A stretch of DNA of 36,743 bases. Origin: Elusimicrobiota bacterium. Its GTDB lineage: Bacteria; Elusimicrobiota; Elusimicrobia; Elusimicrobiales; UBA9959. This document shows positions 109 through 28,138 of the stretch, piece by piece. The DNA is taken from the NCBI GenBank assembly GCA_016207645.1, contig JACQPH010000111.1, positions 1-36,743 on the forward strand, written 5' to 3'. Within the stretch, counting starts at the first letter, position 1; each line of letters opens with the position of its first letter. The position numbers were made by a program, and so were the translations under genes. Under the pieces are notes generated by a model. The model had not been told where the DNA came from, ran no database searches, and saw only the letters and a list, made by a program, of their open reading frames with translations.

Positions 109-140
109 GCAATATTACCGTAATACACGCGGGGTATAAA
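109..140 (+). promoter_or_regulatory. 11-bp-period direct-repeat box with -10
   Basis: GCAAT (109) and GTAAT (120) 11 bp apart, 10 bp, then TATAAA (135-140). Confidence 0.55.
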
Positions 141-146
141 TTAACG

Positions 147-1328
147 ATGCTTATCTGGCTGCTTTCGGACTATGACCACAGGAAGCACGTGGCTTTCAAG
201 AGCCTGCTCGCCAGGTTCTCGGCGGCTTACCCGGACTCCGATATCGAATTCCTGGTGAAAAGCCGGCACAGCCTCTGGGAGAGCCTGTTCGCCCATTTGC
301 GCGATCCCAAGCGCAACCCGCTGGCGGACGTAGTGGAGATCCCTCAGAACTGGACCGAGCTGCTGGCCAGGCTGGGCCTGCTCTCCGAACTTTCCTCCGG
401 CCTGGAGGCGCTGTCGCAGCGCCGCTACCCCGAGTTCATCCTCAGGGAACTTTGCCGGGACGGGGGTTCCCGCGCTTATTCCGCCCCCTGGTGGCTGGAG
501 GCCCCGGCCCTTTTTTACCGGCCGCAGGCGCTCAAAGGCGCCGTCGAGGACCCGGACAGGGAGCTGGCCTCCTGGGAGGGCTTCAGGGCCGCCCTTGACC
601 GGCTGCGCCCGCCCGCAAGGCGCGGGAATTTCCGCGGGCTCTCGGTGCCCGGCTCCTCCGGCGCCGTGGAGGTGTCCGACGTGCTCCCCAGGATGTGGGG
701 CCGCCGGGGGGGGCTGTTCTCGGACGATTTCAACAGGGCCACTTTCAGCCGCGACGAGACCGCGGGGGGCGTCGAGGACTGGCTGGAGCTGGCCGTCAGC
801 GGCAAGATAGAGCTTTTCAGCGCGGACCGCTTCGAGAACGGCCCGCGCCCGGCGGAGGATTGCGCCTTCATCATCTCCTCCAGGAAGATCCAGGCCCCGG
901 GCCGTTCCGGCCTGAAAATGCTGCCCTACCCCGGCTATCCTTCCGGCGGCGGCCTGATGCTGGTCTATAACCTGGCCGTCTCCGCCTCCGCCGGGGACTT
1001 CGGCGCCGCCGCCGCCTTCGTCGCCTGGGCCCTGGAGCCGCGCAACGTCTCCGCCTTCGCGGAAAGCTTCGGGGTCTTCCCCTGCCTGAACTCCGTTTTC
1101 GAGGAGCGCCTGCGGAACGAGAAAGAGGCGGCGGTCTACAGGCGGCTTTTCTCCGCGCCCGAGCTCATGCCGAACATCATGGTCTATCCCACGGCCGAGC
1201 TGCTGCTGGAACGGGCGCTCTGGAACCTCTCTTTGAAGATAGCCCGCCGGGATTACGAGCGGGAGGACCTGGACCGCGAGCTGATAATGGCGCAGGGCGA
1301 GGCGGATTACCTGCTGTCGCTGTACTGA
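147..1328 (+). CDS. Extracellular-solute-binding-protein-like fold (sugar-ABC SBP family), no evident signal peptide
   Basis: 393 aa ORF; N-terminus MLIWLLSDYDHRKHVAFKSLLARFSAAYPDSDIEF resembles the first strand/helix of SBP folds; no hydrophobic export signal; no Shine-Dalgarno before ATG. Confidence 0.6.
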   Translation: MLIWLLSDYDHRKHVAFKSLLARFSAAYPDSDIEFLVKSRHSLWESLFAHLRDPKRNPLADVVEIPQNWTELLARLGLLSELSSGLEALSQRRYPEFILRELCRDGGSRAYSAPWWLEAPALFYRPQALKGAVEDPDRELASWEGFRAALDRLRPPARRGNFRGLSVPGSSGAVEVSDVLPRMWGRRGGLFSDDFNRATFSRDETAGGVEDWLELAVSGKIELFSADRFENGPRPAEDCAFIISSRKIQAPGRSGLKMLPYPGYPSGGGLMLVYNLAVSASAGDFGAAAAFVAWALEPRNVSAFAESFGVFPCLNSVFEERLRNEKEAAVYRRLFSAPELMPNIMVYPTAELLLERALWNLSLKIARRDYEREDLDRELIMAQGEADYLLSLY

Positions 1329-1376
1329 GGGGGGTAGAGGGAAGGTCTGGCGGATCTTACTGTTTACTCCGACCGC

Positions 1377-2906
1377 ATGAAAAAGAGAGGAAAAGAACTT
1401 TACGGCGCCGAGCCCGGCCGGGCCTATTACGACGGCCGCGACGCCTTCATGAAGGCGGCCCTCGAGGCCGTCTCGGAGCGCTTCGCCCTGGACGGGGCCT
1501 CGTTCTACGAATACGACGAAAAGAACGGCCTGCTGCGCCAGCGCCAGCGCCACGCCTGCGGCGTTTCCTTCGAGCACGAGGAGGCGCTGCGCCCGCCGCC
1601 GGGCTCGGCGGCCGCCCGCGCGATAGAGACGGTGGCCTGCGCCTCCTCGAAGACCCAGGGCGGGAGCTTCCTGTATTCCCCTTTCCGGTTCGACTACTGC
1701 GACCCCTCCGGCGGGCGCGGCGTTATCCCCTGCTTCGGCCTGGTGCGCCTGGAGCGCTCCCCCAGGAAGAAGGGCTTTACCCCGGCGGAGGCCGCCAGGG
1801 CCGACGCCTACCTGCGCTCCTACCTGCGCGACTACTACAAAGCGGAATTCTTTTTCCTGCACCGCAAGTACGACAAGAACGTGGCCGCCATCACCGAGCT
1901 GACGGAGGTGTTCGCCACCGCGCTGCGCGTGCGCGACAGCTTCAGGCATATCCTTTCCGGCATCCAGACCTATTTCGGCTTCGACCGCGTGCGGCTCTAC
2001 CTGATAGACGAGAAGAACCGCAAGCTCAAGGGCGAGCTTTCCGCCGACATCCGCGGCCAGATCAAGAGCATCTCCTACGAGGAGATCCCGCTGGAGGCCG
2101 GCGCGCACCGCTTCGCCGACATCGTGCTGGGGCGCAGTTCCGGCGCCTTCCTGGAGCGCTACAAGGACTGCGTGCTCTACATGCCGCTGGCGGTGCAGGG
2201 CGTCACCATCGGTCTGCTGATAGTCGACAATCTGCTCAGCCAGCAGCGCATCGAGCCGGCCGAGCTGGCCATGCTGAAGTCCTTCGGCGGCCAGATAGCG
2301 CTGGCCGTGGACAATTCCCGCCTGTTCGACAAGGTCGAGGAGCTCTCCCTTTACGACGAGCTGACCAAGCTCCCGCTGCGCCGCTATTTCAACCAGCGCT
2401 TCCAGGAGGAGTTCTACCGCGCCGAGCGCTTCAGGCAGCCGCTGGCCCTGGTCTGGGCCGACGTGGACTATTTCAAGGAGGTCAACGACACCTACGGCCA
2501 CCAGATAGGCGACAAGGTGCTGAAGGAAGTCGGGCGCGTGATCCTCTCGAACCTGCGCAAGATAGACTTCCCCTGCCGCTACGGCGGGGACGAGATCCTG
2601 ATCCTGCTGCCGCAGGCCACCGGCCTCGAGGCCCGGCGCCTCTCCGAGCGCCTCAGCAAGGAGCTTTCCGAGCTGCGCATCCCGGTGCCTTTCTCGAAGA
2701 CGAAGGAGCTGCGCGTGACCATGAGCGTCGGGGTTTCCACCTTCCCGCAGGACGCCTCCTCCATGGACGGCCTGCTGGAAAAGGCCGACGACGCGCTGTA
2801 CTGGGTCAAGTCGCACGGCCGCGGCGCGATAGCGCTGTATTCCGACGTGGCCGAGGAGAAGAAAAAGGCGGTCGGGGCCGGAGGGAGCGCAAATGGGAGC
2901 GAATAA
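1377..2906 (+). CDS. GAF-domain diguanylate cyclase (GGDEF)
   Basis: C-terminus has DELTKLPLRRYF, NDTYGHQIGD, RKIDFPCRYGGDEILILLP (GGDEI active site, RxxD I-site) and SVGVSTFP; preceding region GAF-like. Confidence 0.9.
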   Translation: MKKRGKELYGAEPGRAYYDGRDAFMKAALEAVSERFALDGASFYEYDEKNGLLRQRQRHACGVSFEHEEALRPPPGSAAARAIETVACASSKTQGGSFLYSPFRFDYCDPSGGRGVIPCFGLVRLERSPRKKGFTPAEAARADAYLRSYLRDYYKAEFFFLHRKYDKNVAAITELTEVFATALRVRDSFRHILSGIQTYFGFDRVRLYLIDEKNRKLKGELSADIRGQIKSISYEEIPLEAGAHRFADIVLGRSSGAFLERYKDCVLYMPLAVQGVTIGLLIVDNLLSQQRIEPAELAMLKSFGGQIALAVDNSRLFDKVEELSLYDELTKLPLRRYFNQRFQEEFYRAERFRQPLALVWADVDYFKEVNDTYGHQIGDKVLKEVGRVILSNLRKIDFPCRYGGDEILILLPQATGLEARRLSERLSKELSELRIPVPFSKTKELRVTMSVGVSTFPQDASSMDGLLEKADDALYWVKSHGRGAIALYSDVAEEKKKAVGAGGSANGSE

Positions 2907-4293
2907 TACCGGGCGGCCGGGCGGAACCGGTTTACGTTCCGCCGCCTTCTGCTGCCTTCTGCTGCTTTCCCTCGCTGTTTCTTCCCGCGCGGTCTTCGAG
3001 GACCTGCCGGCCGGGGCGCGGCAGGCCGGTTTCGGCGGGCAGTCGGCCGCGCTCGAGGACCCGCTTTCCCTTTACGGCAACCCGGCGCTGCCCGGCGCCT
3101 CCCGCAAGTTCGAGACCGGCGCGCATTTCCTTTCCTCGGAGCGCACCACGCAGGGCCCGGCGGAGCTTTCGGCCTACGGCGCCTGGGCGCTGCTCCCGCG
3201 CATGGCCTACGGCAGGATGGGCACCCTTTCCATAGCCGGGCTTTACAGGGACGACGGCGGCGTCCTGACGCAGAAGGCCATTTCCTTCGGCTGGGGCACC
3301 TGGCAGCTGCGCAGGGGACCCGCCGGGGTGCTCGACCTCGGCGCCAGCCTGAAGATACTGCAGGCGGCGGCTTCTACCGGGGGGGATTCGGCCTCCGGCG
3401 TGGCCGTGGACCTGGGCGCGGTCTTCAGGCCGGACAGCGGCCATGCCGTCGGTTTCTCCATCCTCAATCTGAACAACCCCTCTTTCGACGTGGGCGGGCT
3501 CAAGGACAAGGCGCCGCTGGTGATCAGGCTGGGCGTCTCGGAACGGAGGGAGGACTACACCCTCTCCCTGGACCTGGCCAGGCGCACGGCCTCCTCCGGG
3601 CAGAAAGGCAATATCAGCTTCAATCCCGGAGTGGAGCATGCCTGGCGCACCCGGCGCGCGGGCCTGCTGTATTCGCGCGCCGGGCTCAACCTGGCCGAGC
3701 GCGCCTCGGCCCTGAGCGCCGGCCTGGGCTGGAAGCATCTGGCCACCGAGCTTTCCTACGGCCTCGCGGTGCCGCTGACCGGGGCCATAGTGCCGGCGCA
3801 TTCGCTCGCGCTGGCGCTGCGCTTCGGCGACAGGGACGTGGAGGCGGAATACGAGCGCCTCATCAGGCAGGAGATAAAGTACCGCAAGGACCTGGTGGAG
3901 GCGCTGGACGAAAGCGCCAGGCGCGAGAACCTTTTAAAGCGGGAACTGGCCTCGATGAAGGCCGAGATAGATTCGCTCAACGCCAGGCTGAAGGACACGG
4001 TCGAGCAGAAGGCCGCCGAGAGCGGCGAAAAAGAGAGGCTGGCCGCCGTGGTGCGGCGCCAGGCCGCCGCCGAGGCCGAGCTCAGGGCCCTGGCCGAGAA
4101 GCGCAAGGCGGACAAGCTGGCCCAGCTCAAGTACGATTTCAGCCTGGACTGGCAGGCCTACCTCAAGCTGAAGGGCGGCGGCGCGCCCTCCGACGTGCTG
4201 AAAAGCAGCCTGCAGCGCATGCTGGCGCAGTACCAGGACGCCGGCATAGACATCAGCCAGGCCACGATGGAACTGCAATCCCTGGTGCGTTAG
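2893..4293 (+). CDS. PorV/UPF0164-like outer-membrane beta-barrel protein with C-terminal coiled coil
   Basis: signal peptide; ARQAGFGGQSAALEDPLSLYGNPA motif typical of PorV-like proteins; C-terminal charged coiled coil; 14-nt overlap with upstream gene. Confidence 0.65.
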   Translation: MGANNTGRPGGTGLRSAAFCCLLLLSLAVSSRAVFEDLPAGARQAGFGGQSAALEDPLSLYGNPALPGASRKFETGAHFLSSERTTQGPAELSAYGAWALLPRMAYGRMGTLSIAGLYRDDGGVLTQKAISFGWGTWQLRRGPAGVLDLGASLKILQAAASTGGDSASGVAVDLGAVFRPDSGHAVGFSILNLNNPSFDVGGLKDKAPLVIRLGVSERREDYTLSLDLARRTASSGQKGNISFNPGVEHAWRTRRAGLLYSRAGLNLAERASALSAGLGWKHLATELSYGLAVPLTGAIVPAHSLALALRFGDRDVEAEYERLIRQEIKYRKDLVEALDESARRENLLKRELASMKAEIDSLNARLKDTVEQKAAESGEKERLAAVVRRQAAAEAELRALAEKRKADKLAQLKYDFSLDWQAYLKLKGGGAPSDVLKSSLQRMLAQYQDAGIDISQATMELQSLVR

Positions 4294-4299
4294 GTGGAG

Positions 4300-4418
4300 G
4301 GCAGGCCGGGGTTTTGTTTCGCGAACCCCTTGCGGAAGGGGGGGCCCCGCCTGGCGGGGGGAAACCGACGCAAGGGTTTCCATCTTTCGGGGTTCGCGGG
4401 GCAAAACCCCGGCCTGCC
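4300..4418. repeat. Palindromic mosaic repeat, full copy
   Basis: 30-nt arms 4300-4329 / 4389-4418 (27/30 complementary) with internal hairpins CCCTTGCG/CGCAAGGG and CCCCGCC/GGCGGGG. Confidence 0.9.
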
Positions 4419-4450
4419 CGGACCCCGTAGAGGCCGGAAACGCTCACCCC

Positions 4451-4504
4451 GTAACGTTTTGTTAACATTTAATTCACTCCCGGTTAATATCCCGATGTTA
4501 AACT
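4451..4504 (+). promoter_or_regulatory. Four-unit 11-bp-period direct-repeat box with weak -10
   Basis: GTAAC 4451, TTAAC 4462, TTCAC 4473, TTAAT 4484, 10 bp, TAAACT 4499-4504. Confidence 0.5.
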
Positions 4505-4544
4505 TATCCATAAGGAAGGCCGGGCGGCCGGACGGCTTATATCC

Positions 4545-6284
4545 ATGGAAAGCAAAGAAATAGACAGGCATCTGAACGAACTCTGGAAGAAAGTCTCGGG
4601 GAGCGAGTACGTCCCGGAGGCTTCGCCTCTGCCGCCCGACATCCGCCAGTCCAACATGGAGACCATGCGTTTCCTGCGCGAAAATTTCTCCAAGGCCGAG
4701 AGCGAGTGGAAGACCCTGCTCGCCGGCAAGGAAGCGCAGCTGCGCGACCTTAACTCCCAGCTGGAGGAGACGAAGGCCCTTTCGGACGAGCTCAGGCGGC
4801 ATTACCAGGAGGCGCGCGAAAAAGCCCTCAGCGAGGAACTGGCCACCGCCATGAACCTGGAGAGCTCCGGGAAGCTCCTCGACTCGCAGAAGAAGAACCA
4901 TGCCCGGGAAGTGACCCTCCTCAAGGAGCTGCTGGAGCGCAGCAAGACGGAACTGCTCGGCCTGCAGGGCCGCATCGACGCCCTGCTGGCCGAGCGCGAC
5001 GGCATCCGCGATAAATTCGCCGCCCTTTCCGCCGAGAAGGCGGACCTGGACGACGAGAAGGCGGGGCTTGACGCGAAACTGGCCGATTCCAGGGAAGCGG
5101 TGGAGAAGACGCTGGCCGAGCTGCTCGGCGAGCGCAAGAACCGCCGCGACGACCAGGTGAAAATGAAGGGCCTGGAAACCAGAATAAAAGAGCTGACCGG
5201 CAGCCTGGAAAGCAATAAGGCCAACTGGGACGCGGAGAGGGCGCAGTGGAGGGAGATGTGGGACAGGGAGCGCTCCGTCTGGGAGACCCACAGGCAGGAA
5301 TTCGCCGTCTGGGAGGAGCGCCTGCGCGCCGAGCGCGAAGCCTGGACCCTGAAGATGCGCGAGCAGGAATCCAGGGGCGTCGAGAACGCCGCCGGCCTCG
5401 CCAATATACTGAAGGAGTCCAGCCAGTGGTCGGAAAAAGTGACGCAGGTGCTCAAGCTTTACGCCCTCAAAGGCGTGGAACTCCCCAGCGTTTTCGTCTC
5501 CGCGTCGCCCGACCAGAACTTCATCCGCGCCCGGAAGAACGTTTCCCGCGCGCTGGCGCTCGGCCTCGCCGGCCTTCTGCTGATGGCCGGCGCCGCCTGG
5601 CAGGTATACGCCTGGCGCGCCAAGGTCCATTACAAGCTTCTGGCGACGGCCCCGCTGGACCTGCCCAACCCCTCCGGCCTGGCCGTGACGAAAGAGGGCC
5701 TGTGGCTGGCCGACTGGAACAGAGGTCTTACGCTTAAGGATACAAAGGACTTTTCAACCCTGCGCGCCCTGCCGGCCCCGGCGGGGGGCCTGTTGAAGCC
5801 CGGCGCGCTGAGCGCTTCGGACGGCGGGCTTTGGACCCTGGACATGGCCCAGCTGCGCTACGCGCGCCAGAATTTCAAGGACGGAGCGATAACCGAGTCC
5901 GTTAAGACCCCCGGCGCCGCCCCGCAGGGCGCGGCCTGGGACGGCTACAACCTCTGGGCTTTCGACGCTTCCTCCGGCCTGCTTTACAAGTACGGCCTGG
6001 ACCCCTCGGCCGGCGCCGCCGCCACCTACCAGCTGGAAGGGGTGAAGAGCCTGGTCTGCATGCAGTGGGTGAACGGCCGGCTCTGGACCCTGGACGGCAG
6101 GAACGTCCTGCGGCGCTACGCGCTGAAAGAGGGGGTCTTTAAGCGGGTCTCCAGCCAGGATTTCGGGAGGAGCCGGGCCGCCGCCTTCTGGGCCGAGGCC
6201 GGCACGCTCTGGTCGGTGGAAAAAGCCGGCGAACTGTCCGGCGGCTATGAGTTGAAGAGGTATTCCCTGAAGCAGTACGACTAA
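4545..6284 (+). CDS. Long cytoplasmic coiled coil, single TM helix, C-terminal beta-propeller-like domain
   Basis: 579 aa; about 300 aa heptad-rich region, one TM (ALALGLAGLLLMAGAAWQVYAW), then repeats such as GLWLADWN / GLWTLD / NLWAFDASSG / RLWTLDGRN. Confidence 0.7.
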   Translation: MESKEIDRHLNELWKKVSGSEYVPEASPLPPDIRQSNMETMRFLRENFSKAESEWKTLLAGKEAQLRDLNSQLEETKALSDELRRHYQEAREKALSEELATAMNLESSGKLLDSQKKNHAREVTLLKELLERSKTELLGLQGRIDALLAERDGIRDKFAALSAEKADLDDEKAGLDAKLADSREAVEKTLAELLGERKNRRDDQVKMKGLETRIKELTGSLESNKANWDAERAQWREMWDRERSVWETHRQEFAVWEERLRAEREAWTLKMREQESRGVENAAGLANILKESSQWSEKVTQVLKLYALKGVELPSVFVSASPDQNFIRARKNVSRALALGLAGLLLMAGAAWQVYAWRAKVHYKLLATAPLDLPNPSGLAVTKEGLWLADWNRGLTLKDTKDFSTLRALPAPAGGLLKPGALSASDGGLWTLDMAQLRYARQNFKDGAITESVKTPGAAPQGAAWDGYNLWAFDASSGLLYKYGLDPSAGAAATYQLEGVKSLVCMQWVNGRLWTLDGRNVLRRYALKEGVFKRVSSQDFGRSRAAAFWAEAGTLWSVEKAGELSGGYELKRYSLKQYD

Positions 6285-6396
6285 TACTTGTTATTTATAT
6301 TGATTTATTATGGCTAAAATGGCAGAATTTGAAAGTGCATCCGAGGCGCGGCTGAAACCGCGGCCGGTCCGGTTCCGTCTTTTATCGAGGAAGATT

Positions 6397-9300: not shown

Positions 9301-9546
9301 AACATCGCCGGGGACCTGGTGTTCAAGAAGACCTTCGGGGACCTCAACTCGCCGCGCGACGCCGGCAACAACGTGGACGGCAACGGCAGGTGCGTGGCCA
9401 ACCCGGCCCACGAGGCCTGCTGGCCCAAGGTGAACAGCTACGGCCGGACGGTGGCCCCCGGCGTCTACTTCGCGGTGATACGTTTCCAGGCCACCGACGG
9501 CACCAGGGATATCTGCCAGACGATAAAGAAGATACTGATACCGTAG
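6397..9546 (+). CDS. Large exported protein with about six FlgD-Ig-like repeats (WDGxD motif)
   Basis: start revised from the 6310 ORF: ATG 6397 preceded by GAGGAAG and followed by signal peptide MLKKLIFIFGALALPAANVSAQQ; recurring FWDGRDNTGNFVAGGNY-type motifs; C-terminal FFAPNPYDG...VSLKMYNIAGDLVFKK...GVYFAVI. Confidence 0.75.
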   Translation: MLKKLIFIFGALALPAANVSAQQLYVNSIDVRFVDGGNGYCSDVTGGSTSRSFITSGGNVWQNSSLIEFERPRTSYPGGCLGLCATLVCVSTAGYFGIDEMTFEVFKFGTGSNPLDPASTPPIKTIAMYNIGTCQSDGNVEYTIGTFCTSWDGSYNLNGLFGKTNGQFGFRTKVRTNQVSATAGNISIEQTSAFPGQNQIPIQVNVTNIHTVRSSPTVVGRITGVAAQPYNILYRLSKDATVSINIYDANTAGTLPTVRNLLIAAPRTGEGIPDGTMTNGDFWDGRDNTGNFVAGGNYIARIEAGSNDMWQPPTDLAFPATIQMSLDPLQITDVSVRPLGSSSTDMATISYMLTESATVYVNIYPPNTQINYLTGAASNAPLRRFIEVKDRRITASTFWDGRDEGGSPVCDGDYMYAIDAVMPSNSAFAPAGEVWTKLTKVGTVPVARGKALAFINPSSTVIGSTQQVAGLDPFYFRYTPLRDTFISLYIKKMDGVTVVSSVTENSMRFANFSNRETWNGKDNYGLYVASGAYLAELVSDDPFQCSTEKTSTTTAVIPVNMFRTVDVLSGSLMGGTSDLARVSFELSQPMYMKLRIYPVSSVVNPSVWPNVAGTPVYTVEGMRPGRFKVTEYWDGRDVNGRLVEDGRYPFTLVAYTTGTAQVMQSVDKTYGYVDVSRGKIIFTEFDVIPNIPTMFNSSDTIKLPPYEIDYALTRQSMVTLRILYGQEFANAGNVAALVTDNEVRDGDLLYKDFWDGKDESGNFVAAGSYDVQITAQDIDAQLASMATVQMTIDVDPLRIFDVSIVPLTLENFAVVSYQISEPMKVVTKIFKPGTALPDDTDDPPGGRLVKRIIGVRPSRTQISEYWDGTDLTLSKVPDGNYVFKIYASTFTDAINTIDGVLSAALCPGESCRVPDIVTANIPVTRGGTADLCGDFANETFFAPNPYDGTAGWFKIPFILNGWVSLKMYNIAGDLVFKKTFGDLNSPRDAGNNVDGNGRCVANPAHEACWPKVNSYGRTVAPGVYFAVIRFQATDGTRDICQTIKKILIP

Positions 9547-9741
9547 GGGAAAAGGCGGGAAAGGCGGGAAAGGCTAAAGGATGAAGGCTAAGGGCTAAAG
9601 GGCCGAGGGGATAGTATTAAAGTTTTTGGTTTTTGCGAGGGTAAATTTATGAAGAAGAGAAAAAACCTCAAGAGAAGGGCGCCGTGGCCGGCGCTTTTTG
9701 CCTCCGCCTTTATCCTTCATCTTTTAGCCTTTAGCCTTTCC
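9547..9741. repeat. Heptad-period inverted array pair
   Basis: AAAGGCTAAAGGATGAAGG (9569-9587) pairs with CCTTCATCTTTTAGCCTTT (9714-9732), 18/19 plus one G-U; right arm lies in signal-peptide codons. Confidence 0.8.
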
Positions 9742-10656: not shown

Positions 10657-10659
10657 GCT

Positions 10660-10827: not shown

Positions 10828-10857
10828 GATCTTAAATCGCGGATGGAGGAAAGTAAA

Positions 10858-11049: not shown

Positions 11050-11143
11050 AAACCGGATTTGCCCGCCCCCGGCGCTTTCCGCGCCGGGGCGGGGCGGATA
11101 GCGGTTCTCCCCGGGTGATATTCCCGGAGAAAGTTGCGTCTTT

Positions 11144-11671: not shown

Positions 11672-11714
11672 TTAACACGGATTTAACGGGAAGTTAATAA
11701 TTTAGTTGGAGAAT
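11672..11714 (+). promoter_or_regulatory. Three-unit 11-bp-period direct-repeat box upstream of cpaB
   Basis: TTAAC 11672, TTAAC 11683, TTAAT 11694, 10 bp, GAGAAT 11709-11714. Confidence 0.5.
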
Positions 11715-11720
11715 ATACTT

Positions 11721-12476
11721 ATGGAAAAGAAAGGCATGCTTGTCCCCGTGCTGCTGGCCCTGGCCGCGGCCGGCATTTACTGGTGGGTGCTCACCTCCAA
11801 GGAGCGCTCCCTGGCCGCCCAGAACGAGCGCGCCACGGTGCTGGTGGCCCGGTTCGACCTGCCCGCCCGCACGATCATGAACGTGGACGTCGTCGAGACC
11901 AGGGAGATCCCGCGCATGTACCTGGAGCAGGACGCCTACGAGGTCAAGACCCAGTCCGACATCAAGCTGGTCAGCAACCTGGTCACCATGATCCGCATCC
12001 CCAAGGGCAACCAGATAACGAATTCGGCCCTGGTGTCCCTCAGCCCCGAGGCCGGCCTCAGCGTGAAGGTGCCGCCCGGCTACCGCGGCTGCGTGCTGCC
12101 GCTCGAGAGCGACCTGCTGCGGCTGATAAAGCCCGGCGACCGCGTGGACATCCTGGTCAGCTTCGACGCCGTGATGGGCGACAACCGCAAGGAGAAAGTG
12201 ACCGCCACTATTTTGCAGAACGTGCTCGTGCTGGGCGTGGGCTCGAACCTCGGCCAGGGCCTTTCCGGCTCGCAGGCCAAGGCCAAGGCCGCGGCCGAGG
12301 CCGCCGACCAGGCCTTCTCGGAGAAGGCGGCGCTCAGCCTGGCGCTCAATCCCAACGAGGCGCAGTACCTGGCCCTGTCCATCAAGCAGGGCAACGTGGA
12401 CGTGATAGTGCGCGGCCTGGGCGACGTGGAGCTGCACCCGATGGCGATAGCTTCGTTCAAGCAGCTTATAAAGTAG
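11721..12476 (+). CDS. cpaB: Flp pilus assembly protein CpaB/RcpC (SAF domain)
   Basis: N-terminal TM then VLVARFDLPARTIMNVDVVETREIP SAF-like region and LLRLIKPGDRVDILVSFD; start taken at ATG 11721 (ORF track opens at a TTG). Confidence 0.85.
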   Translation: MEKKGMLVPVLLALAAAGIYWWVLTSKERSLAAQNERATVLVARFDLPARTIMNVDVVETREIPRMYLEQDAYEVKTQSDIKLVSNLVTMIRIPKGNQITNSALVSLSPEAGLSVKVPPGYRGCVLPLESDLLRLIKPGDRVDILVSFDAVMGDNRKEKVTATILQNVLVLGVGSNLGQGLSGSQAKAKAAAEAADQAFSEKAALSLALNPNEAQYLALSIKQGNVDVIVRGLGDVELHPMAIASFKQLIK

Positions 12477-18194: not shown

Positions 18195-18298
18195 GAAAGG
18201 CTGAAGGCTAAAGGATAAAGGCTGAAGGATTAGGGATCAAGTACTTATCACATCACCGCTTGAATTATGGCTTCTTGATCCTTCGGCCTTAATCCTTA
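18195..18298. repeat. Heptad-period inverted array pair
   Basis: AAGGATTAGGGATCAAG (18225-18241) vs CTTGATCCTTCGGCCTTAATCCTT (18274-18297): arms differ by one 7-nt unit. Confidence 0.75.
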
Positions 18299-18309
18299 CC
18301 ACTTACCAT

Positions 18310-19626: not shown

Positions 19627-19650
19627 CCGCGCGCGGGGAAGGCGGAGGGG

Positions 19651-19681
19651 GCCGCCCTCAAAAAGGGCGGCTCCTTTTTTG
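19651..19681 (+). terminator. Rho-independent terminator
   Basis: GCCGCCC-TCAAAAA-GGGCGGC followed by TCCTTTTTTT, 25 nt after the stop of the TPR gene. Confidence 0.92.
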
Positions 19682-19695
19682 AAGGTAACTGCCCG

Positions 19696-19723
19696 AACCC
19701 CATATAGCGACCTGAACGGTTAC
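19696..19723. repeat. Repeat tail copy
   Basis: AACCCCATATAGCGACCTGAACGGTTAC is 25/28 identical to AACCCCGTATAGCGACCTGAATAGTTAC at 20990-21017. Confidence 0.75.
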
Positions 19724-19739
19724 TTTTGAAGACTATCTT

Positions 19740-19782
19740 TTAACCGTTCTGTAACATGTTTGAAACGCGGACTTTGTAGAAT
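19740..19782 (+). promoter_or_regulatory. Three-unit 11-bp-period direct-repeat box with -10
   Basis: TTAAC 19740, GTAAC 19751, GAAAC 19762, 10 bp, TAGAAT 19777-19782. Confidence 0.65.
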
Positions 19783-19828
19783 TTGAGCAGGCTCGGGCGG
19801 GACCGGTTTCTCTTATAGGACAAAATTT

Positions 19829-20944
19829 ATGCGGCTTACCGTGAAATGGCTGATGTGGTTCGTCGGGATAGGCATCTACGTGATGTTCCTCGGCGGCATT
19901 TTCTACTACAACCTCTTCAAGTGGACTTTCGACGAGAAGCTGAAACAGGACGTGATCGAGACCGTCAAGGTCTACGCGCCCACCCTGCGCAACGGCCTGC
20001 TCAACAACGCCAACGCGATCTCCTTCGAGGAGTACGACATCATGCAGTCGCTGGTCAAGGACGAGCGCATCACCTCCCTGATCTACCTCAGCCGCCAGGG
20101 CAAGGTGCGCTGGCACAAGGAATCCCGGTTCATGGGCATGGGCTGGGACGAACTGCAGAAGCAGGTCCCGCCGCCCACCGACGCCATAGCGCAGGCCTAC
20201 CTCTCCAAGATGCCCAAGGTGCGCCAGGTGAAGGGCGAGCCTTTCTACGAGATCGCCATCCCTTTCTCGGTCCGCGGCGACATCATCGGCATCATCGACA
20301 TGATGGTGTCCAGGGCCGGCGCGGAGGTGCTGATCGGCTCGGCCATGCGCAAGTACGTGTTCGGGGCCGTCGGCGTCCTGTTCCTGCTGGGCCTGCCGCT
20401 CTATTTCTTCTTCCACCACTACGTGATCTCGCCGATGGACGCGCTGCGCGACAGCGTGGAGAGCGTCTCGCTCAAGAACTTCGACCTGCGCTTCCCGGCC
20501 CGCGCCGACGAGTTCGGGGACCTTTCCGGCGCCATCACGAGGCTGATGGGGAAGATGAAGGTGGAGATAGAGGGCATCTCCAACAGGGACCGCACCTACA
20601 AGGAGGCGGAGCAGCGCTGGTGGCGTTCCCTGCTGAACATCATCGTGCCGGCCACGAACTACGTGATCGTCGTCGACGAGAACAACAGCATCCTTTACGC
20701 CAATTTCGAGCTCGGCCAGGGCATGGACGCCAAGAACATCCACCTGCTGGACGTGGTGGACAGCCAGCAGCAGACGCTGCTGCGCCTGGTGGGCCAGGCC
20801 TTCGAGACCCCCGACCAGCCCGTGGAGGGCGAGACCGTCTTCAAGAACCAGAACTTCAACGTGAAGGTGCTCCACGTCGGCCAGACCGCCGAGACCAACC
20901 GCACCCTGATCCTCTTCTACCCCAAAGCCCAGATAAGCATGTAG
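19829..20944 (+). CDS. Membrane sensor with periplasmic domain, HAMP and PAS-like domain, no recognisable output domain
   Basis: two TM segments flanking about 145 aa; HAMP-like VISPMDALRDSVESVSLKNFDLRFPARADEFGDLSGAITRLMGKM; C-terminal PAS-like NYVIVVDENNSILYAN; no kinase/GGDEF/MA motifs. Confidence 0.7.
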   Translation: MRLTVKWLMWFVGIGIYVMFLGGIFYYNLFKWTFDEKLKQDVIETVKVYAPTLRNGLLNNANAISFEEYDIMQSLVKDERITSLIYLSRQGKVRWHKESRFMGMGWDELQKQVPPPTDAIAQAYLSKMPKVRQVKGEPFYEIAIPFSVRGDIIGIIDMMVSRAGAEVLIGSAMRKYVFGAVGVLFLLGLPLYFFFHHYVISPMDALRDSVESVSLKNFDLRFPARADEFGDLSGAITRLMGKMKVEIEGISNRDRTYKEAEQRWWRSLLNIIVPATNYVIVVDENNSILYANFELGQGMDAKNIHLLDVVDSQQQTLLRLVGQAFETPDQPVEGETVFKNQNFNVKVLHVGQTAETNRTLILFYPKAQISM

Positions 20945-20945
20945 C

Positions 20946-21017
20946 CGTAACTTTAGGTAGTGGAGGGTTGGCCGGGGTTTTGCCCCGCGAACCCCGTATA
21001 GCGACCTGAATAGTTAC
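20946..21017. repeat. Short palindromic mosaic repeat with single arm, bounded by GTAACT..AGTTAC
   Basis: GGCCGGGGTTTTGCCCCGCGAACCCC (20970-20995) equals one arm of the 4300 copy; GTAACT..AGGT / ACCT..AGTTAC borders. Confidence 0.7.
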
Positions 21018-21080
21018 GAATAATTATGTATTATATAACCAGCACGGGCCCGGCCCGCGGGTATTATTTTGGAGGAAATT

Positions 21081-21377
21081 ATGAAACTTGAAGTGCGCAA
21101 TATCAGCGTCGGTTCGCTCGTTACCTCTTCGGTGCCGCTGGTGGTCTTCTGCCTGGCGCTCCTCGGGGGCGTGGTGACCTTCATGGTGGTGCCCAATATG
21201 CAGCTGGCCTCCATGAGCTTTTTCCAGAAGCTGCTGAGCGTGGGCCTCTACGCCCTGCTTTACGTGGTGATAAGCACGGCGGTGCTCGTGTTCGCCGCCT
21301 TCGTCTACAACGTCCTCACCGGGGTGCTCGGCCTCCGCGGCATCACTTTCGACATAGAAGAGATCCACCACGACTAA
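21081..21377 (+). CDS. Small two-TM membrane protein, DUF3566-like
   Basis: MKLEVRNISVGSLVTSSVPLVVFCLALLGGVVTFMVV...; ATG 21081 preceded by GGAGGAAATT. Confidence 0.55.
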   Translation: MKLEVRNISVGSLVTSSVPLVVFCLALLGGVVTFMVVPNMQLASMSFFQKLLSVGLYALLYVVISTAVLVFAAFVYNVLTGVLGLRGITFDIEEIHHD

Positions 21378-21383
21378 AACAAA

Positions 21384-22142
21384 ATGAAAATAAACATCAT
21401 CTTTGCCTCGAAAGACCTGTCGCGGGCCTCGCTGATGCTGGAGATGCTTTCCCGGCAGGGCTACGCCGTGGCCACGGCCCACCGGGCCCGGGAGGTCATG
21501 GGGATGCTGGCGGAGAAGTCCTTCGACATGGTCATGATAGGCCAGAACCTGGCCGACGAGGAAGGGCTCACCTTCCTGCGCAACCTCAGGGCCAAGAACA
21601 AGAACATCCCCGTCATCGCGGTGCTGGAATCCCCGGACACCTTCCTCGACCATATGCCGTCCGGCCTGAACATGGAGGCCCTGCTGCCGCACGGCGCCTC
21701 CGGCCGCGAGACCCCCAGGATCTCCTACAAGCTGGCCTTCTTCCAGCTCGGAGCCGACGAGTGCCTGGCCTACAGCCAGGACCTGCACGAGAGCGTCGCC
21801 CGCGTGCGGGCCGTGGTGCGCCGCACCGTCAGCGTGCAGGCGGACGAAGTGCTGAAGATGAACGAGATAGAGCTCAATATGTCGAGCTACACGGTGCGCA
21901 TCGGCGGCAGGGAGATAAAGGTGACGGCCAAGGAATTCGACCTGCTCTACGTCTTCCTGAGCTCCCCGAACCGCGTACTGTCCAGGCCCTACCTGATAGA
22001 GCGCGTCTGGGGCTACAACTATTTCGGCTCGCCGCGCACGGTGGACGTGCACGTGCGCAGGCTGCGCTCCAAGATGGGCAAGTCCTCGCGCTACGTGCAC
22101 ACGGTGCCCTGCGTGGGCTACAAGCTGGTGCCCTCCAAGTAG
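21384..22142 (+). CDS. OmpR/PhoB-family response regulator with degenerate receiver
   Basis: C-terminal winged helix VRIGGREIKVTAKEFDLLYVFLSSPNRVLSRPYLIERVWGYNYFGSPRTVDVHVRRLRSKMG...VGYKLVPSK; receiver lacks the usual acidic pair and phospho-Asp. Confidence 0.88.
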   Translation: MKINIIFASKDLSRASLMLEMLSRQGYAVATAHRAREVMGMLAEKSFDMVMIGQNLADEEGLTFLRNLRAKNKNIPVIAVLESPDTFLDHMPSGLNMEALLPHGASGRETPRISYKLAFFQLGADECLAYSQDLHESVARVRAVVRRTVSVQADEVLKMNEIELNMSSYTVRIGGREIKVTAKEFDLLYVFLSSPNRVLSRPYLIERVWGYNYFGSPRTVDVHVRRLRSKMGKSSRYVHTVPCVGYKLVPSK

Positions 22143-22200
22143 GGGGGCGGGGTTCGGGAGCGGAGAAATTCAGCTTTTAAAAAACAACGGGAGAAAAAAT

Positions 22201-22578
22201 ATGGCCGCGAACAAGATCCTGATAATAGACGACGACACGCACCTGCGCGAGAGCCTGGCCGAGGTGCTGGACCTGGAGGGCTTCAAATGCTTCGAGGCCG
22301 GCAACGCCAGGGGCGGCATAGAGTCCGCCAAGAAGAACAAGCCCGACGTGGTGATAATGGACATCCAGCTGCCGGACTCCTCCGGCTTCCAGATCTGCCA
22401 GGAGCTGCGCAAGTTCTCGAAGGAGTTCATCCTCATCATGATGACGGGCCGCTTCCTCTCGGCCGAGGAGAAGACCCAGGGCCTGTCCCTGGGCGCCGAC
22501 GAGTACATGACCAAGCCCTTCGATATACCGGAGCTCTGCATCCGCATCCGCCAGCTGCTCACCAGGAAGGGGAAATAA
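22201..22578 (+). CDS. Single-domain (CheY-like) response regulator
   Basis: KILIIDDDTHLRESL, VVIMDIQLPDSSG, MMTGR, GADEYMTKPFD. Confidence 0.9.
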   Translation: MAANKILIIDDDTHLRESLAEVLDLEGFKCFEAGNARGGIESAKKNKPDVVIMDIQLPDSSGFQICQELRKFSKEFILIMMTGRFLSAEEKTQGLSLGADEYMTKPFDIPELCIRIRQLLTRKGK

Positions 22579-24047
22579 TGAAAAAGACCGCCCTGACGCT
22601 CGTTTCCCTGCTGGTGTTTTCCACCGCCTTCGCGCAGCAGCCTCCCGCCGCCGCGAAGCCCGCGGCTAAACCCGCGGCCGCCGCCGGAGCGGCCGGCGGC
22701 CAGATGGAACTTTACCTGGAGGCCATGGACGGCCAGGGCTGGCAGTGGTTCTTCCTGGCCGACACCGTCAGGCGCCGCCTGGACGGGTCCGGCCTCAAGG
22801 TGTACCCGCTGGTGACGAAGAACGCCGACGGCGCCTTTTCCGCCCGCCGCGGCGAGACGGAGCTGGCCGAGTCCTACCGGCTCGCGGTGCTGGTAAAGTC
22901 CTATCCCGGCAAGCTGCTCAACTATCTTAACGCGCGCTCCCTCAGCCCTTCGGCCGACGGCTGGCGCGACGCCGCCCTTTTCGCCGGGGTCAACCCGGAC
23001 GAACTGGAAAAACGCGCCGCCTCCGAGGGCGCCGCGGCCCTGGCGGACGCGAATAAAAGGTCCTCCGCGGCCGGCGCCGCCGAGACCGCCCTTTTCCTGG
23101 GGGGGAAGCGCTACGCGGGCTCCCAGCGTCTGCTGCCGCTTTACGACGCCGTGAACGCCTCCCTGCCCGCCGCCAGGCGCGCCCCGCCCCCGGCCGGCTA
23201 CGTCGCGAAGCCCAAGGCCCCGCCCCCCGGTTTCTGGGTGGTCCTCAGCTCCGGCCTGGCCGCGAACGACGCTCTGGTGGGCGTGTTCGACAGGTATTTC
23301 GAGGGCATAAAGCCGGTAACGCTGGACCACGCCTCCGCGGAGCGCGCGGCCCGGTTCCCCGCGCTCGAGTTCGTCCCCTCCTACGTCCTCGCCGCCACGC
23401 CCGAGGCCAAGACCCGCCTGGACGCCGAGATCAGGGCCGGGCTTTTCAAGGAGAACGGCGGCTACCTGGTCTACGAGGACAGGCAGCGCGCCGGCCTGTA
23501 CGCCGGCCGGCCGGAAAAAAAGAACACCCTGGAGATCTTCGTGATGAGCCAGTGCCCCTTCGGGGTGCTGGCGGAGAACGCAGTGCTGGACGCGGAAAAG
23601 AACAAGCTGCTGCCGGAAGGCCTTAAGGTCGAGATACATTATATCGGCGACGCCAAAAAGGACGAGGCCGGCGCCTGGACCTTCTCGAGCCTGCACGGGC
23701 AGCCGGAATGGGAGGAGAACGCCCGCCAGATCTTCATTAACGCGAAGTTCCCGGACAAGTTCAACGCGTACCTGCTGGAGCGCAACAAAGCGGTGACCTC
23801 CCCCGACTGGCAGAGCGCGGCTAAAACCGCCGGCATCGACCCCGAGGCCGTGACCGCGGGCTTCGGGGAGGCCAAGGACCTCCTGGCCGCCAATTTCGCG
23901 GCGACCGGGGCGCTGGGGATCACCACTTCCCCGTCGTTCATGGTGGACGGAAGACGCTTCATGGTGGGGCTCGGCGAGCTGACGAAGACAGCCGGCTTCG
24001 AGAAGCTCCCGCCGCCCGGCCAGCCGGCCGCCGGCTGCGCCAAATAG
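22578..24047 (+). CDS. Exported protein with C-terminal thioredoxin-fold/GILT-like domain (single-Cys CPFG)
   Basis: signal peptide; TLEIFVMSQCPFGVLAENAVL, ALGITTSPSFMVDGRR; TAATG stop/start overlap with preceding gene. Confidence 0.6.
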   Translation: MKKTALTLVSLLVFSTAFAQQPPAAAKPAAKPAAAAGAAGGQMELYLEAMDGQGWQWFFLADTVRRRLDGSGLKVYPLVTKNADGAFSARRGETELAESYRLAVLVKSYPGKLLNYLNARSLSPSADGWRDAALFAGVNPDELEKRAASEGAAALADANKRSSAAGAAETALFLGGKRYAGSQRLLPLYDAVNASLPAARRAPPPAGYVAKPKAPPPGFWVVLSSGLAANDALVGVFDRYFEGIKPVTLDHASAERAARFPALEFVPSYVLAATPEAKTRLDAEIRAGLFKENGGYLVYEDRQRAGLYAGRPEKKNTLEIFVMSQCPFGVLAENAVLDAEKNKLLPEGLKVEIHYIGDAKKDEAGAWTFSSLHGQPEWEENARQIFINAKFPDKFNAYLLERNKAVTSPDWQSAAKTAGIDPEAVTAGFGEAKDLLAANFAATGALGITTSPSFMVDGRRFMVGLGELTKTAGFEKLPPPGQPAAGCAK

Positions 24048-24053
24048 GGGAAC

Positions 24054-24085
24054 GCAACATTTCCGTAACAGCCTTCTGGGATAAT
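24054..24085 (+). promoter_or_regulatory. Two-unit 11-bp-period direct-repeat box with -10
   Basis: GCAAC 24054, GTAAC 24065, 10 bp, GATAAT 24080-24085. Confidence 0.6.
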
Positions 24086-24090
24086 ATACG

Positions 24091-24180
24091 GAGGGATTAA
24101 GGATTAAGGATTAAGGATTAAGAATCAAGGATTAAGACTTGCCGCTATACTTAATTCTTACCACTTAATCCTTAATCCCG
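24091..24180. repeat. Heptad-period inverted array pair (GGATTAA unit)
   Basis: GGGATTAAGGATTAAG (24093-24108) perfectly pairs with CTTAATCCTTAATCCC (24164-24179). Confidence 0.85.
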
Positions 24181-24187
24181 CCCGATT

Positions 24188-26077
24188 ATGACAGAAGCTC
24201 CAAAGAAGCGCGGCAGGCTGTTCTACAAGTTCCTGCTCATCTTCCTCATAGTTTCGCTGGTGCCCCTCGGCATAGTCGGCTACTACCTCGTAAACCTCAG
24301 CCAGGTCACCCTGAACCGCGCCATCTCCCGCGACCAGGAATCCCTGGCCGTCGGCTTCGCCGATACCGTCTCCAGCTACATAGTGAATTTCCGCAACGTG
24401 CTGACCGACGCGGCCCACCTGGAGGATTTCGCCTCCATGAACGTGCCCAAGCAGCGCGAGCTGGTGAGCCACATCATGCAGCTGCACGCGGCCTTCCTCG
24501 AGATCTCGGTGATAAACGCCGCCGGGGTCGAGACGGTGCGCCTGGGCCGCTTCGAGCACGAGAGCAAGATGCGGGACTTCTCCGGCGACGCGCTGTTCGC
24601 CAAGGTCATGCGCGCCGGCGAGTTCGTGGGCGGGCTCGAGAAATACCAGGGCAAGTACCCCGCCATCACGATGGGCGCGCAGATAGTGAACCCGGCCACC
24701 AACCAGCCGGCCGGGGCGATCCTCGCCAAGATGAGCCTCACCGCCCTGTCGAGCCTGCTGAAGACCGGCTTCCCGGAGACCACCCACACGCAGGCCGCCG
24801 TGATCGATTCCAGCGGCTTCCTGATAGCGCATTCCAACGACAAGGAGATCTACAAGCCGGACGCCAAACTGCCGGACGACGTGCTGCGCATCCTCCTCCA
24901 GAACGACGCCAAGACCGGCGGCGGCGAGCTGATCCTGGAATCGGGCGAGCGCGTGCTGGGGGCCTTCGCCGAGGTCTCCGACCTGGGCTGGGTGGTCTAT
25001 ATCCAGCGCTCCGTGTCCGTGGCCTACTCGGCCTCCGACGACATGCTCAAGCGCACCTGGCGCATGATGCTGATAGTCACGGTTTTCGTGCTCTTCCTCG
25101 GCTACGCGGTCTCGCTGGTCATCACCCAGCCCATCTCGGCCCTGCGCGAGGCCGCCATCAAGCTGGGCGAGGGGGACTTCGACTACCTGCCGGACCTCAG
25201 CATGCCCAACGACGAAATAGGCGAGCTGGCGCACACCTTCATGCAGATGAGCGAGTCGCTGAAGGTCAAGACGGCCGAGATCATGTCCGCCAAGGACGAG
25301 CTGGAGCGCCTGAACCGCAGCCTGGAGAACCGGGTGGAGGCCCGCACGCGCGAGCTGAAATCGGCCCAGGACGAGCTGATCAAGAAGGAGCGCCTGGCCG
25401 CCATCGGGCAGATGGCCTCCGTCGTGGGCCACGAGATCCGCAACCCGCTGGCCGTCATCAACAACTCGATCTATTTCATCAAGACCAAGACCAACGCGCA
25501 GGCCAGCCCCGAGCCGAAGGTGGTAAAGCACATCGCCATCATCGAGTCCGAGATCAGGCAGGCCAACGGCATCATCGACGAGATCCTGGGCTTCGCCCGC
25601 ACGCGCGAGCTGAACCCCAAGCTGGTGCACCTGAACTCCTACCTGGAGGACCTGACCATGTCCTTCCCGGTGCCGCCGCATATCGAGCTGGTGAAGAGCT
25701 TCGCGCCGGAGAACCCGACGGTGAACATAGACACCGACGAGATGGCGCAGGCGCTCCGCAACCTGATCAAGAACGGCATCGAGGTGATGCCGGAGCGCGG
25801 CAAGGTGTACGTGCGCAGCGAGATGGCCGACGCCGGCACGGTGCGCATCGACGTGGAGGACACCGGCCAGGGCATCCCCAAGGAGACCCTGGAAAAGATC
25901 TTCGCCCCTTTCTTCACCACCAAAGCGCGCGGCACGGGCCTGGGCCTCGCCGTGGTGAAGAAGGTGGCCGACCGCCACAAGGGCCGCATAGAGGCCACCA
26001 GCGTGGTCGGCCAGGGCACCTGCTTCAGGCTTTTCATCCCCGTGGTGCAGAACCCTCCGCCCCCGGCCCCGCGGTAA
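24188..26077 (+). CDS. Sensor histidine kinase (Cache-like extracellular domain, HAMP, HisKA, HATPase)
   Basis: two TMs around large sensor domain; HAMP; H-box VVGHEIRNPLAVINNSIYF; N-box NLIKNGIEVMP; DTGQGIPKE, GTGLGLAVVKKV. Confidence 0.93.
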   Translation: MTEAPKKRGRLFYKFLLIFLIVSLVPLGIVGYYLVNLSQVTLNRAISRDQESLAVGFADTVSSYIVNFRNVLTDAAHLEDFASMNVPKQRELVSHIMQLHAAFLEISVINAAGVETVRLGRFEHESKMRDFSGDALFAKVMRAGEFVGGLEKYQGKYPAITMGAQIVNPATNQPAGAILAKMSLTALSSLLKTGFPETTHTQAAVIDSSGFLIAHSNDKEIYKPDAKLPDDVLRILLQNDAKTGGGELILESGERVLGAFAEVSDLGWVVYIQRSVSVAYSASDDMLKRTWRMMLIVTVFVLFLGYAVSLVITQPISALREAAIKLGEGDFDYLPDLSMPNDEIGELAHTFMQMSESLKVKTAEIMSAKDELERLNRSLENRVEARTRELKSAQDELIKKERLAAIGQMASVVGHEIRNPLAVINNSIYFIKTKTNAQASPEPKVVKHIAIIESEIRQANGIIDEILGFARTRELNPKLVHLNSYLEDLTMSFPVPPHIELVKSFAPENPTVNIDTDEMAQALRNLIKNGIEVMPERGKVYVRSEMADAGTVRIDVEDTGQGIPKETLEKIFAPFFTTKARGTGLGLAVVKKVADRHKGRIEATSVVGQGTCFRLFIPVVQNPPPPAPR

Positions 26078-26083
26078 TTCCCC

Positions 26084-26112
26084 TTGTATTCCGCCTTGTA
26101 AAGTAATATAAA
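26084..26112 (+). promoter_or_regulatory. Sigma70-like promoter
   Basis: TTGTAT - 17 bp - TATAAA upstream of the hybrid kinase. Confidence 0.55.
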
Positions 26113-26152
26113 TATAGACGGCGCGCGGCCTTCGCCGCCGCGCCTATACGAC

Positions 26153-27325
26153 ATGGAAAGCAAAATTTTAGTAGTCGACGACGACGCCCATCTGCGGGAA
26201 ACCCTGCGCGACCTCCTGGAGATGGAGGGGTACAAGGTCTTCGAGGCGGAGAGCGGCGCGGCGGCCATGAAGATGGTAGTCTCCGATTTCTTCCACGTCA
26301 TCCTGATGGACTTCAACCTGACCGACAAGACCGGCATCGAGGTCATCAAGGACATCCGCAAGCTCAACACCGACAGCCAGATCCTGATGATGACCGCCCA
26401 CGCCTCGCTCGACACCGCGGTGCGCGCCATCCAGGAATCGGTCTACGATTTCCTGATCAAGCCCGTCGATTTCAACTACCTGCGCCGCTCCATCAAGAAG
26501 GCCGAGGAGAAGCTCTACCTCGAGCAGGAGAACAAGCGCCTGATCGACATGCTCAAGCACAATAACGAGGAGCTGGACCGCCTGAACGGCATGAAGAGCA
26601 AGTTCATGTCCATGGCCTCGCACGACCTGTCCAACTCCCTGATGACGCTGCAGATCAGCTTCGAGATGCTGGCCGCCACGGTCAATCCGAACCCCGACCA
26701 GAAGAAGAAGATGGATTTCATCAACACCAGCATCGCGCAGATCTCCCGCCTGATCGGGGACCTGGTGGACTGGGCCTCCATCGAGCAGGGGAAGCTCCGC
26801 ATGGAGAAGAACTATTTCGAGATGGACAAGATGGTGACCGAGATGATAGTGGGCCCGAAGGCCCGCGCCCAGCAGAAGAACATCGAGATCACGGCGGAGT
26901 GCTCCCCGGGCCTCAAGATGGTCTGCGCCGACAAGCGCCGCATAGGCCAGGTGCTGCTGAACCTGCTCGAGAACGGCATCCGCCATACCCAGCGCGGCGG
27001 CAGGATCACCGTCTACGTCACCCCGCTCGAGGATTCCGTCTGCGTTTCCGTCAAGGACACCGGCGAGGGCATAGACCCCGAGGTGCTCCCGAAGCTTTTC
27101 CAGAGTTTCTACCAGCCGGCCGGCGGCAAATCGCCGCATGGGCGCCTGGGGCTGGGGCTCTCTATCTCGAAGGAGATAGTGCAGAACCACGAGGGGAAGA
27201 TCATGGTGGAGAGCGAGGGCGTGGGCAAGGGCTCCGCTTTCAAGTTCACCATCCCCTTCGCCAAGGAGCCGCCCCCCGCGGACGCCGCGAAAGGCGGGCA
27301 GGCCCCGAACGAAGGGCATCATTAG
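26153..27325 (+). CDS. Receiver-HisKA-HATPase hybrid kinase
   Basis: KILVVDDDAHLRETL, VILMDFNLTDKTG, KPVDF; H-box MASHDLSNSLMTLQ; NLLENGIRHTQRGG, DTGEGIDPEVLPKLF, GLGLSISKEIV. Confidence 0.92.
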   Translation: MESKILVVDDDAHLRETLRDLLEMEGYKVFEAESGAAAMKMVVSDFFHVILMDFNLTDKTGIEVIKDIRKLNTDSQILMMTAHASLDTAVRAIQESVYDFLIKPVDFNYLRRSIKKAEEKLYLEQENKRLIDMLKHNNEELDRLNGMKSKFMSMASHDLSNSLMTLQISFEMLAATVNPNPDQKKKMDFINTSIAQISRLIGDLVDWASIEQGKLRMEKNYFEMDKMVTEMIVGPKARAQQKNIEITAECSPGLKMVCADKRRIGQVLLNLLENGIRHTQRGGRITVYVTPLEDSVCVSVKDTGEGIDPEVLPKLFQSFYQPAGGKSPHGRLGLGLSISKEIVQNHEGKIMVESEGVGKGSAFKFTIPFAKEPPPADAAKGGQAPNEGHH

Positions 27326-27370
27326 GGGAGCGGCAGCAGGCAGTATACACTGAGTACAAGGAGCTTAACT

Positions 27371-28045
27371 ATGGCCGTTGCAAAAAAGAACGTTACCGTG
27401 CTGATCGCGGATGACCAGACCCTTTTCAGGGAGGGCATCAAAGACCTCCTGGAGGACGAGAAGGGCATAACCGTGGTGGGGGAGGCCTCCAACGGCCCCG
27501 AAGTGGTAGCCATGGCCAAAAAGCTCAAGCCCGACGTCATCCTGATGGACATCAAGCTGCCGCAGATGGACGGCGTTTCCGCCACCCGCATCATCCGCAA
27601 GGAATGCCCCCAGACCAACGTGCTGATCCTCTCCGGCTACGAGGACGAGGCCCACGTGACCGAGGCCATCCAGGCCGGCGCCAACGGCTACCTGTCCAAG
27701 ATGCTGCCCGCCTCCGAGCTGGTGCACGCGCTGAAGACCTTCAACTCCGAGGGCGTCATGATACCCCAGCCCATAATGGGCAAGCTGATCCAGGGCCTGC
27801 GCCAGATGGGCACCCCCGGCTACGACAGCGCCCCGGACGCGCTGACCGCCACCGAGATAAAGGTGATGGCGCTGCTCGGCAAGGGCAAGAGCAATAAGGA
27901 GATCGCCTCCGAGCTGGGCTGCAGCGTGAAGACCATCAAGAACCACCTCAACAGCATCTTCCAGAAGCTGGGCGTGAACAACCGCACCGAGGCCGTGGTC
28001 AGGGCCATAGAGAAGGGCCTGATCTCGCCGGAAGACGGCAGGTAG
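27371..28045 (+). CDS. NarL/FixJ-family response regulator
   Basis: VLIADDQTLFREGI, VILMDIKLPQMDG, LuxR-type HTH LTATEIKVMALLGKGKSNKEIASELGCSVKTIKNHLNSIFQKLGVNNRTEAV. Confidence 0.95.
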   Translation: MAVAKKNVTVLIADDQTLFREGIKDLLEDEKGITVVGEASNGPEVVAMAKKLKPDVILMDIKLPQMDGVSATRIIRKECPQTNVLILSGYEDEAHVTEAIQAGANGYLSKMLPASELVHALKTFNSEGVMIPQPIMGKLIQGLRQMGTPGYDSAPDALTATEIKVMALLGKGKSNKEIASELGCSVKTIKNHLNSIFQKLGVNNRTEAVVRAIEKGLISPEDGR

Positions 28046-28065
28046 GAAACCCCGCCGGCAAGAGG

Positions 28066-28094
28066 CGGCCGGTCCCGCAAGGGCCGGCCGTTTT
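28066..28094 (+). terminator. Rho-independent terminator
   Basis: CGGCCGGTCC-CGCAA-GGGCCGGCCG followed by TTTT, 20 nt after the NarL-type gene. Confidence 0.8.
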
Positions 28095-28106
28095 GCCGTC
28101 CGATAG

Positions 28107-28138
28107 TCAACAATAAAGAAACATCCGCCGCATATACT
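28107..28138 (+). promoter_or_regulatory. Two-unit 11-bp-period direct-repeat box with -10
   Basis: TCAAC 28107, GAAAC 28118, 10 bp, TATACT 28133-28138; directly after a terminator. Confidence 0.55.

Follow-up and report, generated by a model that had tools for sequence, protein, structure and literature searches.

Do six promoters scattered over one pilus locus of an Elusimicrobiota bacterium, a member of a phylum known mostly from metagenomes, answer to a single regulator? The window considered here is the whole 36,743-nucleotide stretch analyzed, and a sequence-only reading of it had described six upstream regions in which a degenerate pentamer, [G/T/C]NAA[C/T], recurs every 11 bp and is followed, after exactly 10 bp, by a -10-like hexamer. 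The open literature searched contained no earlier account of an Elusimicrobiota regulon for which both binding site and candidate regulator had been specified, and the six sites would represent a new regulon under a regulator of a known kind.

Six promoters with a common geometry

Base-by-base checking of the window placed every pentamer (16/16), 11-bp step, 10-bp gap, and all six hexamers exactly where they had been read; the pentamer consensus holds for every unit except TTCAC in site 2, which falls outside it. All sites lie on the + strand. Site 1 (109–140) reads GCAAT-N6-GTAAT-N10-TATAAA, with an ATG 6 bp downstream at 147, and precedes an SBP-like gene and then a GGDEF gene. Site 2 (4451–4504), the predicted promoter of a coiled-coil gene (4545–6284), carries GTAAC, TTAAC, TTCAC, and TTAAT at 11 bp, then 10 bp and TAAACT. 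Site 3 (11672–11714; TTAAC, TTAAC, TTAAT, 10 bp, GAGAAT) is the predicted promoter of the Flp pilus assembly gene cpaB/rcpC (11721–12476, +), the first in a run of pilus genes, secretin and TadA among them, that extends to about 18194. Site 4 (19740–19782; TTAAC, GTAAC, GAAAC, 10 bp, TAGAAT) precedes an operon that starts with a HAMP sensor gene and continues with those for a small membrane protein, the OmpR regulator, and a stand-alone receiver. Site 5 (24054–24085; GCAAC-N6-GTAAC-N10-GATAAT) is the predicted promoter of a dCache-HAMP-HisKA-HATPase histidine kinase (24188–26077, +; Pfam), and site 6 (28107–28138; TCAAC-N6-GAAAC-N10-TATACT) stands upstream of a second pilus block, of which the first long gene (28497–29657, +) is followed by a TadE-like gene. 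At sites 1 and 3 transcription is predicted to begin at the ATG itself, so that leaderless transcripts are possible there.

Reduced to a mechanical grammar (two [GTC]NAA[CT] units at 11 bp, a 10-bp gap, and a loose -10), the pattern matched the window six times on the + strand and not at all on the - strand, while dinucleotide shuffles (n = 100) averaged 0.2 matches and never exceeded two. Scanning periods of 8–14 against gaps of 7–14, the (11,10) combination yielded six matches in the window and the runner-up, (11,12), three. A motif matrix derived from the promoters of orthologs ranked the listed sites first to seventh in the window at 15.9–29.5 bits, the next score being 9.4. Random DNA from the same genome (270 kb, 20 contigs) contained no match to the plain grammar and reached at best 15.0 bits. 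The matrix therefore does not match random genomic DNA; the sequence-only reading had named equally frequent matches in coding and intergenic DNA as fatal to its proposal. A chance likeness among AT-rich intergenic stretches is made conceivable by the degenerate, AT-rich pentamer and by the number of unit pairs spaced at 11 bp, which taken alone is no higher than expected in the window. However, the shuffles, random own-genome DNA, strand bias, period and gap scan, and conservation (below) are all contrary, and the likelihood of this explanation, refuted at the sequence level, is negligible.

The matrix consensus, [G/T]NAA[C/T]A-N5-[G/T]NAA[C/T]A-N4-TTT-N2-TAtAAT-AT, has direct repeats of 10–11 bp at a fixed distance above the -10, as do promoters of OmpR/PhoB-family activators. 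Judged from sequence, the six sites are very likely to be real activator sites of the OmpR/PhoB type that replace the -35.

An Rfam scan detected no RNA elements at the six sites. A c-di-GMP-I riboswitch (Rfam RF01051, 54.6 bits) lies at the window end (36460–36538, +), where the same locus encodes a GGDEF protein. The window also contains intergenic arrays of 7-bp units (GGATTAA, CCTTTAT, AAAGGCT) at 24094–24136, 28297–28333, 18196–18241, and 9569–9601, many of them accompanied by an inverted copy farther along. Relatives carry other 7-bp units at matching positions (TATTCGC, CCCTATA, GGTTACC, GGGATGA; loci L114, L117, L118, L120, L126, and L128), some around a GGAGTTCCTTAA-like core, and these arrays may constitute an undescribed repeat element of this Elusimicrobiota family.

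Conservation of the sites and the direction of control

The genome containing the window is 2.8 Mb and 81% complete, and the family compared comprises 59 Elusimicrobiota genomes in 13 genera. Across this family the order of the pilus locus is syntenic, and 11-bp repeats with the 10-bp gap recur upstream of orthologous genes in about 50 related genomes; the proposal was to have been abandoned had the 11-bp spacing proved variable in orthologous upstream regions, and both spacing and gap are conserved. A score of at least 18 was attained by 22/25, 32/40, 45/50, and 17/34 orthologs at sites 3, 4, 5, and 6, respectively, versus 0.7, 1.5, 2.3, and 4.7% of random stretches, where the counts measure conservation rather than independent events, orthologous promoters not being independent. 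At site 1, four of 11 scoreable orthologous promoters scored at least 18 (L099, L107, L121, L123), and the four-unit array of site 2, including TTCAC, is kept in most orthologs. Among 35 combinations of period and gap, 11 and 10 were best at each of four promoters (sites 3, 4, 5, and 6), narrowly ahead of (11,12), since GATAATAT-like hexamers admit two readings.

Sequence changes in orthologs remain inside the motif. The cpaB upstream region has three units and GAGAAT in almost every genome of the genus, with variants (GAAAC, GCAAT) within the motif. Other genera have TATAAT as the hexamer, still at a gap of exactly 10, as at cpaB (site 3) in L125, L127, and L131, at the second pilus block in L122 and L124, and at the HAMP sensor in L120; site 6 orthologs with TATAAT include L284, L285, L288, and L299. 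Against the proposal, single sites are missing in some genomes that have the regulator: at cpaB in G037 and G054, at the kinase and pilus promoters in L267, and at the HAMP promoter in L300.

These data also bear on whether the repeats are instead operators for repression, or for tuning of read-through, at promoters with another start. Below site 6 there is indeed a second, ordinary promoter-like element (28150–28178, +; TTGAAT-N17-TATAAC) with an extended -10 (TGGTATAAC), kept in most orthologs as TGGTATAACAT. At site 3, GAGAAT overlaps a conserved Shine-Dalgarno sequence, GGAG (11708–11711), 9 nt before the cpaB ATG; it would serve read-through transcripts, and its presence implies them. This Shine-Dalgarno sequence (GGAGAAAGT) persists in genus g3 although the repeats are gone there. 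However, promoters other than site 6 have no -35, and the distance from repeats to -10 is exact, with the hexamer becoming a sharper TATAAT in relatives; both features fit activation better. We consider the operator explanation very improbable and infer direct binding with activation rather than repression.

Genome-wide, a stricter form ending in TANNNT gave 21 matches, three of them in the window, versus 11 for the reversed pattern, consistent with a small regulon centered on the tad locus. Pattern searches returned about ten further candidate sites above genes elsewhere in the genome. These genes encode a fusion of a receiver domain with a T2SSE/TadA-type ATPase (L016:964–2421, with a same-grammar site 40 bp upstream), a Kelch protein (L017), a FliG-like protein (L029), barrel-like proteins (L014, L026), a beta-lactamase-fold protein (L027, its site some 300 bp off), and the OmpR protein C152 (L031). 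Given these similar sites, one of them beside the C152 gene, paralogs may read the same box.

An aspartate-less OmpR protein as candidate regulator

The one OmpR-type DNA-binding protein encoded in the window (21384–22142, +; Pfam Response_reg and Trans_reg_C, the latter a winged helix-turn-helix [wHTH] domain as in the OmpR/PhoB family) had been singled out as a natural candidate for the activator. Its gene follows those for a HAMP-type membrane sensor without a kinase domain (19829–20944, +; no Pfam match; in NCBIfam, residues 163–252 bear a weak and partial resemblance to SiaA) and a small membrane protein (21081–21377, +; gene call in L019, no NCBIfam match), and precedes that for a stand-alone receiver domain (22201–22578, +; Pfam Response_reg, 1.6e-26), possibly a partner of the regulator. 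Because the regulator is third in this operon and site 4 precedes the first gene, it would be autoregulated.

The gene occurs in 54 of the 59 family genomes, in one copy each and in syntenic position; the nearest proteins found outside the clade are about 26–39% identical. Aligned orthologs hardly vary around SYKLAFFQLGADECLSYSQDLHESVARIRAVVRR or anywhere in the wHTH domain. The recognition helix RTVDVHVRRLR is unique to this protein among the 11 OmpR proteins of the genome and identical, by alignment, in PDB chain 8hih; we take entries 8hih and 8hig to be GlnR. Pfam Response_reg covers residues 16–80, and every aligned ortholog has Gly or Ser in place of the phospho-Asp and has also lost the acidic pair and Lys; by Pfam and alignment this is an aspartate-less receiver (ALR), a receiver fold lacking the phospho-Asp. 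Activation by phosphorylation is therefore unlikely, and control would be exerted without it. The predicted structure of the protein is of low confidence, too weak for use. Three further OmpR proteins of this genome, in L004 (C152), L006 (C13), and L009 (C150), have receivers that lack some or all phosphorylation residues.

The five genomes without the regulator are G002, G003, G009, G012, and G029. G012 and G029 were ruled out as counter-examples owing to contig gaps in mid-locus; the tad locus breaks at contig ends there (L345 and L346 in G012; L347 and L348 in G029), making absence calls unsafe. G009 lacks regulator, cpaB, and kinase through a contig gap or loss. G002 and G003, of genus g3, keep cpaB and the kinase, and G002 other locus genes as well, while the regulator is gone from both and their six scoreable promoters are all devoid of sites. 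Regulator gene and sites have thus been lost together, which supports the candidate proposed from sequence. This co-loss counts as one event and is not specific to the regulator gene, because G002 and G003 have lost nearly all OmpR proteins, with one left in each. In L116 (G002) the pilus genes are contiguous and the regulator is lost, a natural deletion useful for comparison.

Alternatively, the repeats could be sites of the Pho-box kind, recognized by C26, a PhoB-like regulator that is phosphorylated in the canonical way, or by another OmpR paralog. Pho boxes share the general architecture of direct repeats in place of the -35, and C26 has a reciprocal best match in G006 and G008 and is absent from G002 and G003, all of which favors this rival. 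However, its recognition helix differs (RTVDVHIGTLRR), and no ortholog was found at E≤1e-55 in the site-bearing genomes G001, G004, G014, G015, G021, G044, and G057, of which several are incomplete but G021 and G015 are 97 and 92% complete; C26 is accordingly disfavored. As for other paralogs, a C120-type protein occurs in g3 even though that genus has no sites, and C152, considered for the site just above its gene, was rejected with close orthologs in only about seven other genomes. Taken together, reading by C26 or another paralog appears quite unlikely. A CtrA-like assignment of the cpaB site (TTAA-N7-TTAA) was also dropped, since other sites have GNAAC and the helix is GlnR-like.

Proposed mechanism and relation to known systems

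Geometry, conservation, and co-loss all support the original proposal, namely that the promoters form a regulon, depend on an activator, and carry direct repeats instead of a -35. The six sites probably bind one OmpR/PhoB-family activator, most likely the 21384–22142 product, which would activate the tad/Flp locus, its signaling genes, and its own operon in positive autoregulation. Two to four wHTH domains are proposed to bind the 11-bp direct repeats head to tail, as in GlnR, on one DNA face and, with the repeats ending 10 bp above the -10, to reach to about -23. PhoB contacts sigma region 4 in place of the -35, and the activator would likewise cover the missing -35, contact sigma region 4, and recruit housekeeping RNA polymerase. 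Its activity might be set by protein amount, the HAMP sensor, or the stand-alone receiver (22201–22578). A more far-reaching scheme, in which a phosphorylation-independent GlnR-type master regulator, core to this Elusimicrobiota family, switches the tad pilus on via protein contact from the HAMP sensor or stand-alone receiver, is rather doubtful; we know of no description of protein-contact signaling of this kind for OmpR-family proteins.

The present proposal would tie tad pili to a candidate regulator unable to use the usual phosphorylation switch, extend the GlnR-type box to another phylum and to different targets, and supply a ready promoter set for a one-protein binding test.

Three known systems invite comparison. 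The Escherichia coli Pho box consists of 11-bp repeats (7 + 4 bp) replacing the -35 near a sigma-70 -10 (PMC4971064). The sequence-only reading had invoked this precedent, and the direct repeats in place of the -35 bear it out, but the half-site is of the GlnR type ([G/T]NAAC) rather than TGTCA-like. PhoB has a phosphorylated receiver and phosphate targets, whereas the 21384–22142 protein has no phosphorylatable receiver and falls short of the NCBIfam PhoB equivalog cut-off (123.6 versus 296.2 bits). ChxR, which binds a direct repeat (PMC4395418), and HP1043 likewise combine an OmpR/PhoB-type output domain with a receiver lacking the phospho-Asp, but their targets are unrelated; a 2015 survey listed no aspartate-less receivers in the then-known genomes of the Elusimicrobia class.

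The closest parallel is GlnR of actinobacteria, an OmpR-family protein that acts without aspartate phosphorylation. Its box is given as t/gTAAC-n6-Gc/aAAC in a review (PMC10704036) and, for Mycobacterium smegmatis, as Gn2AC-n6-GnAACA, where binding depends on how far apart the two AC dinucleotides lie (PMC3662644). The matrix matches the form GNNAC-N6-GNAAC, and, as a sequence motif, [G/T]NAA[C/T]A-N5-[G/T]NAACA fits the actinobacterial GlnR box better than the Pho box. The likeness covers 5-bp half-sites at 11 bp (GlnR: gTnAc-n6-GaAAc), the shared recognition helix, and head-to-tail binding, here proposed from sequence. Unlike the present orthologs with their Gly or Ser, GlnR keeps an Asp (D50) that stabilizes its dimer; it also belongs to a different phylum and targets nitrogen genes, in contrast to the tad pilus, sensor, and surface genes predicted as targets in Elusimicrobiota.
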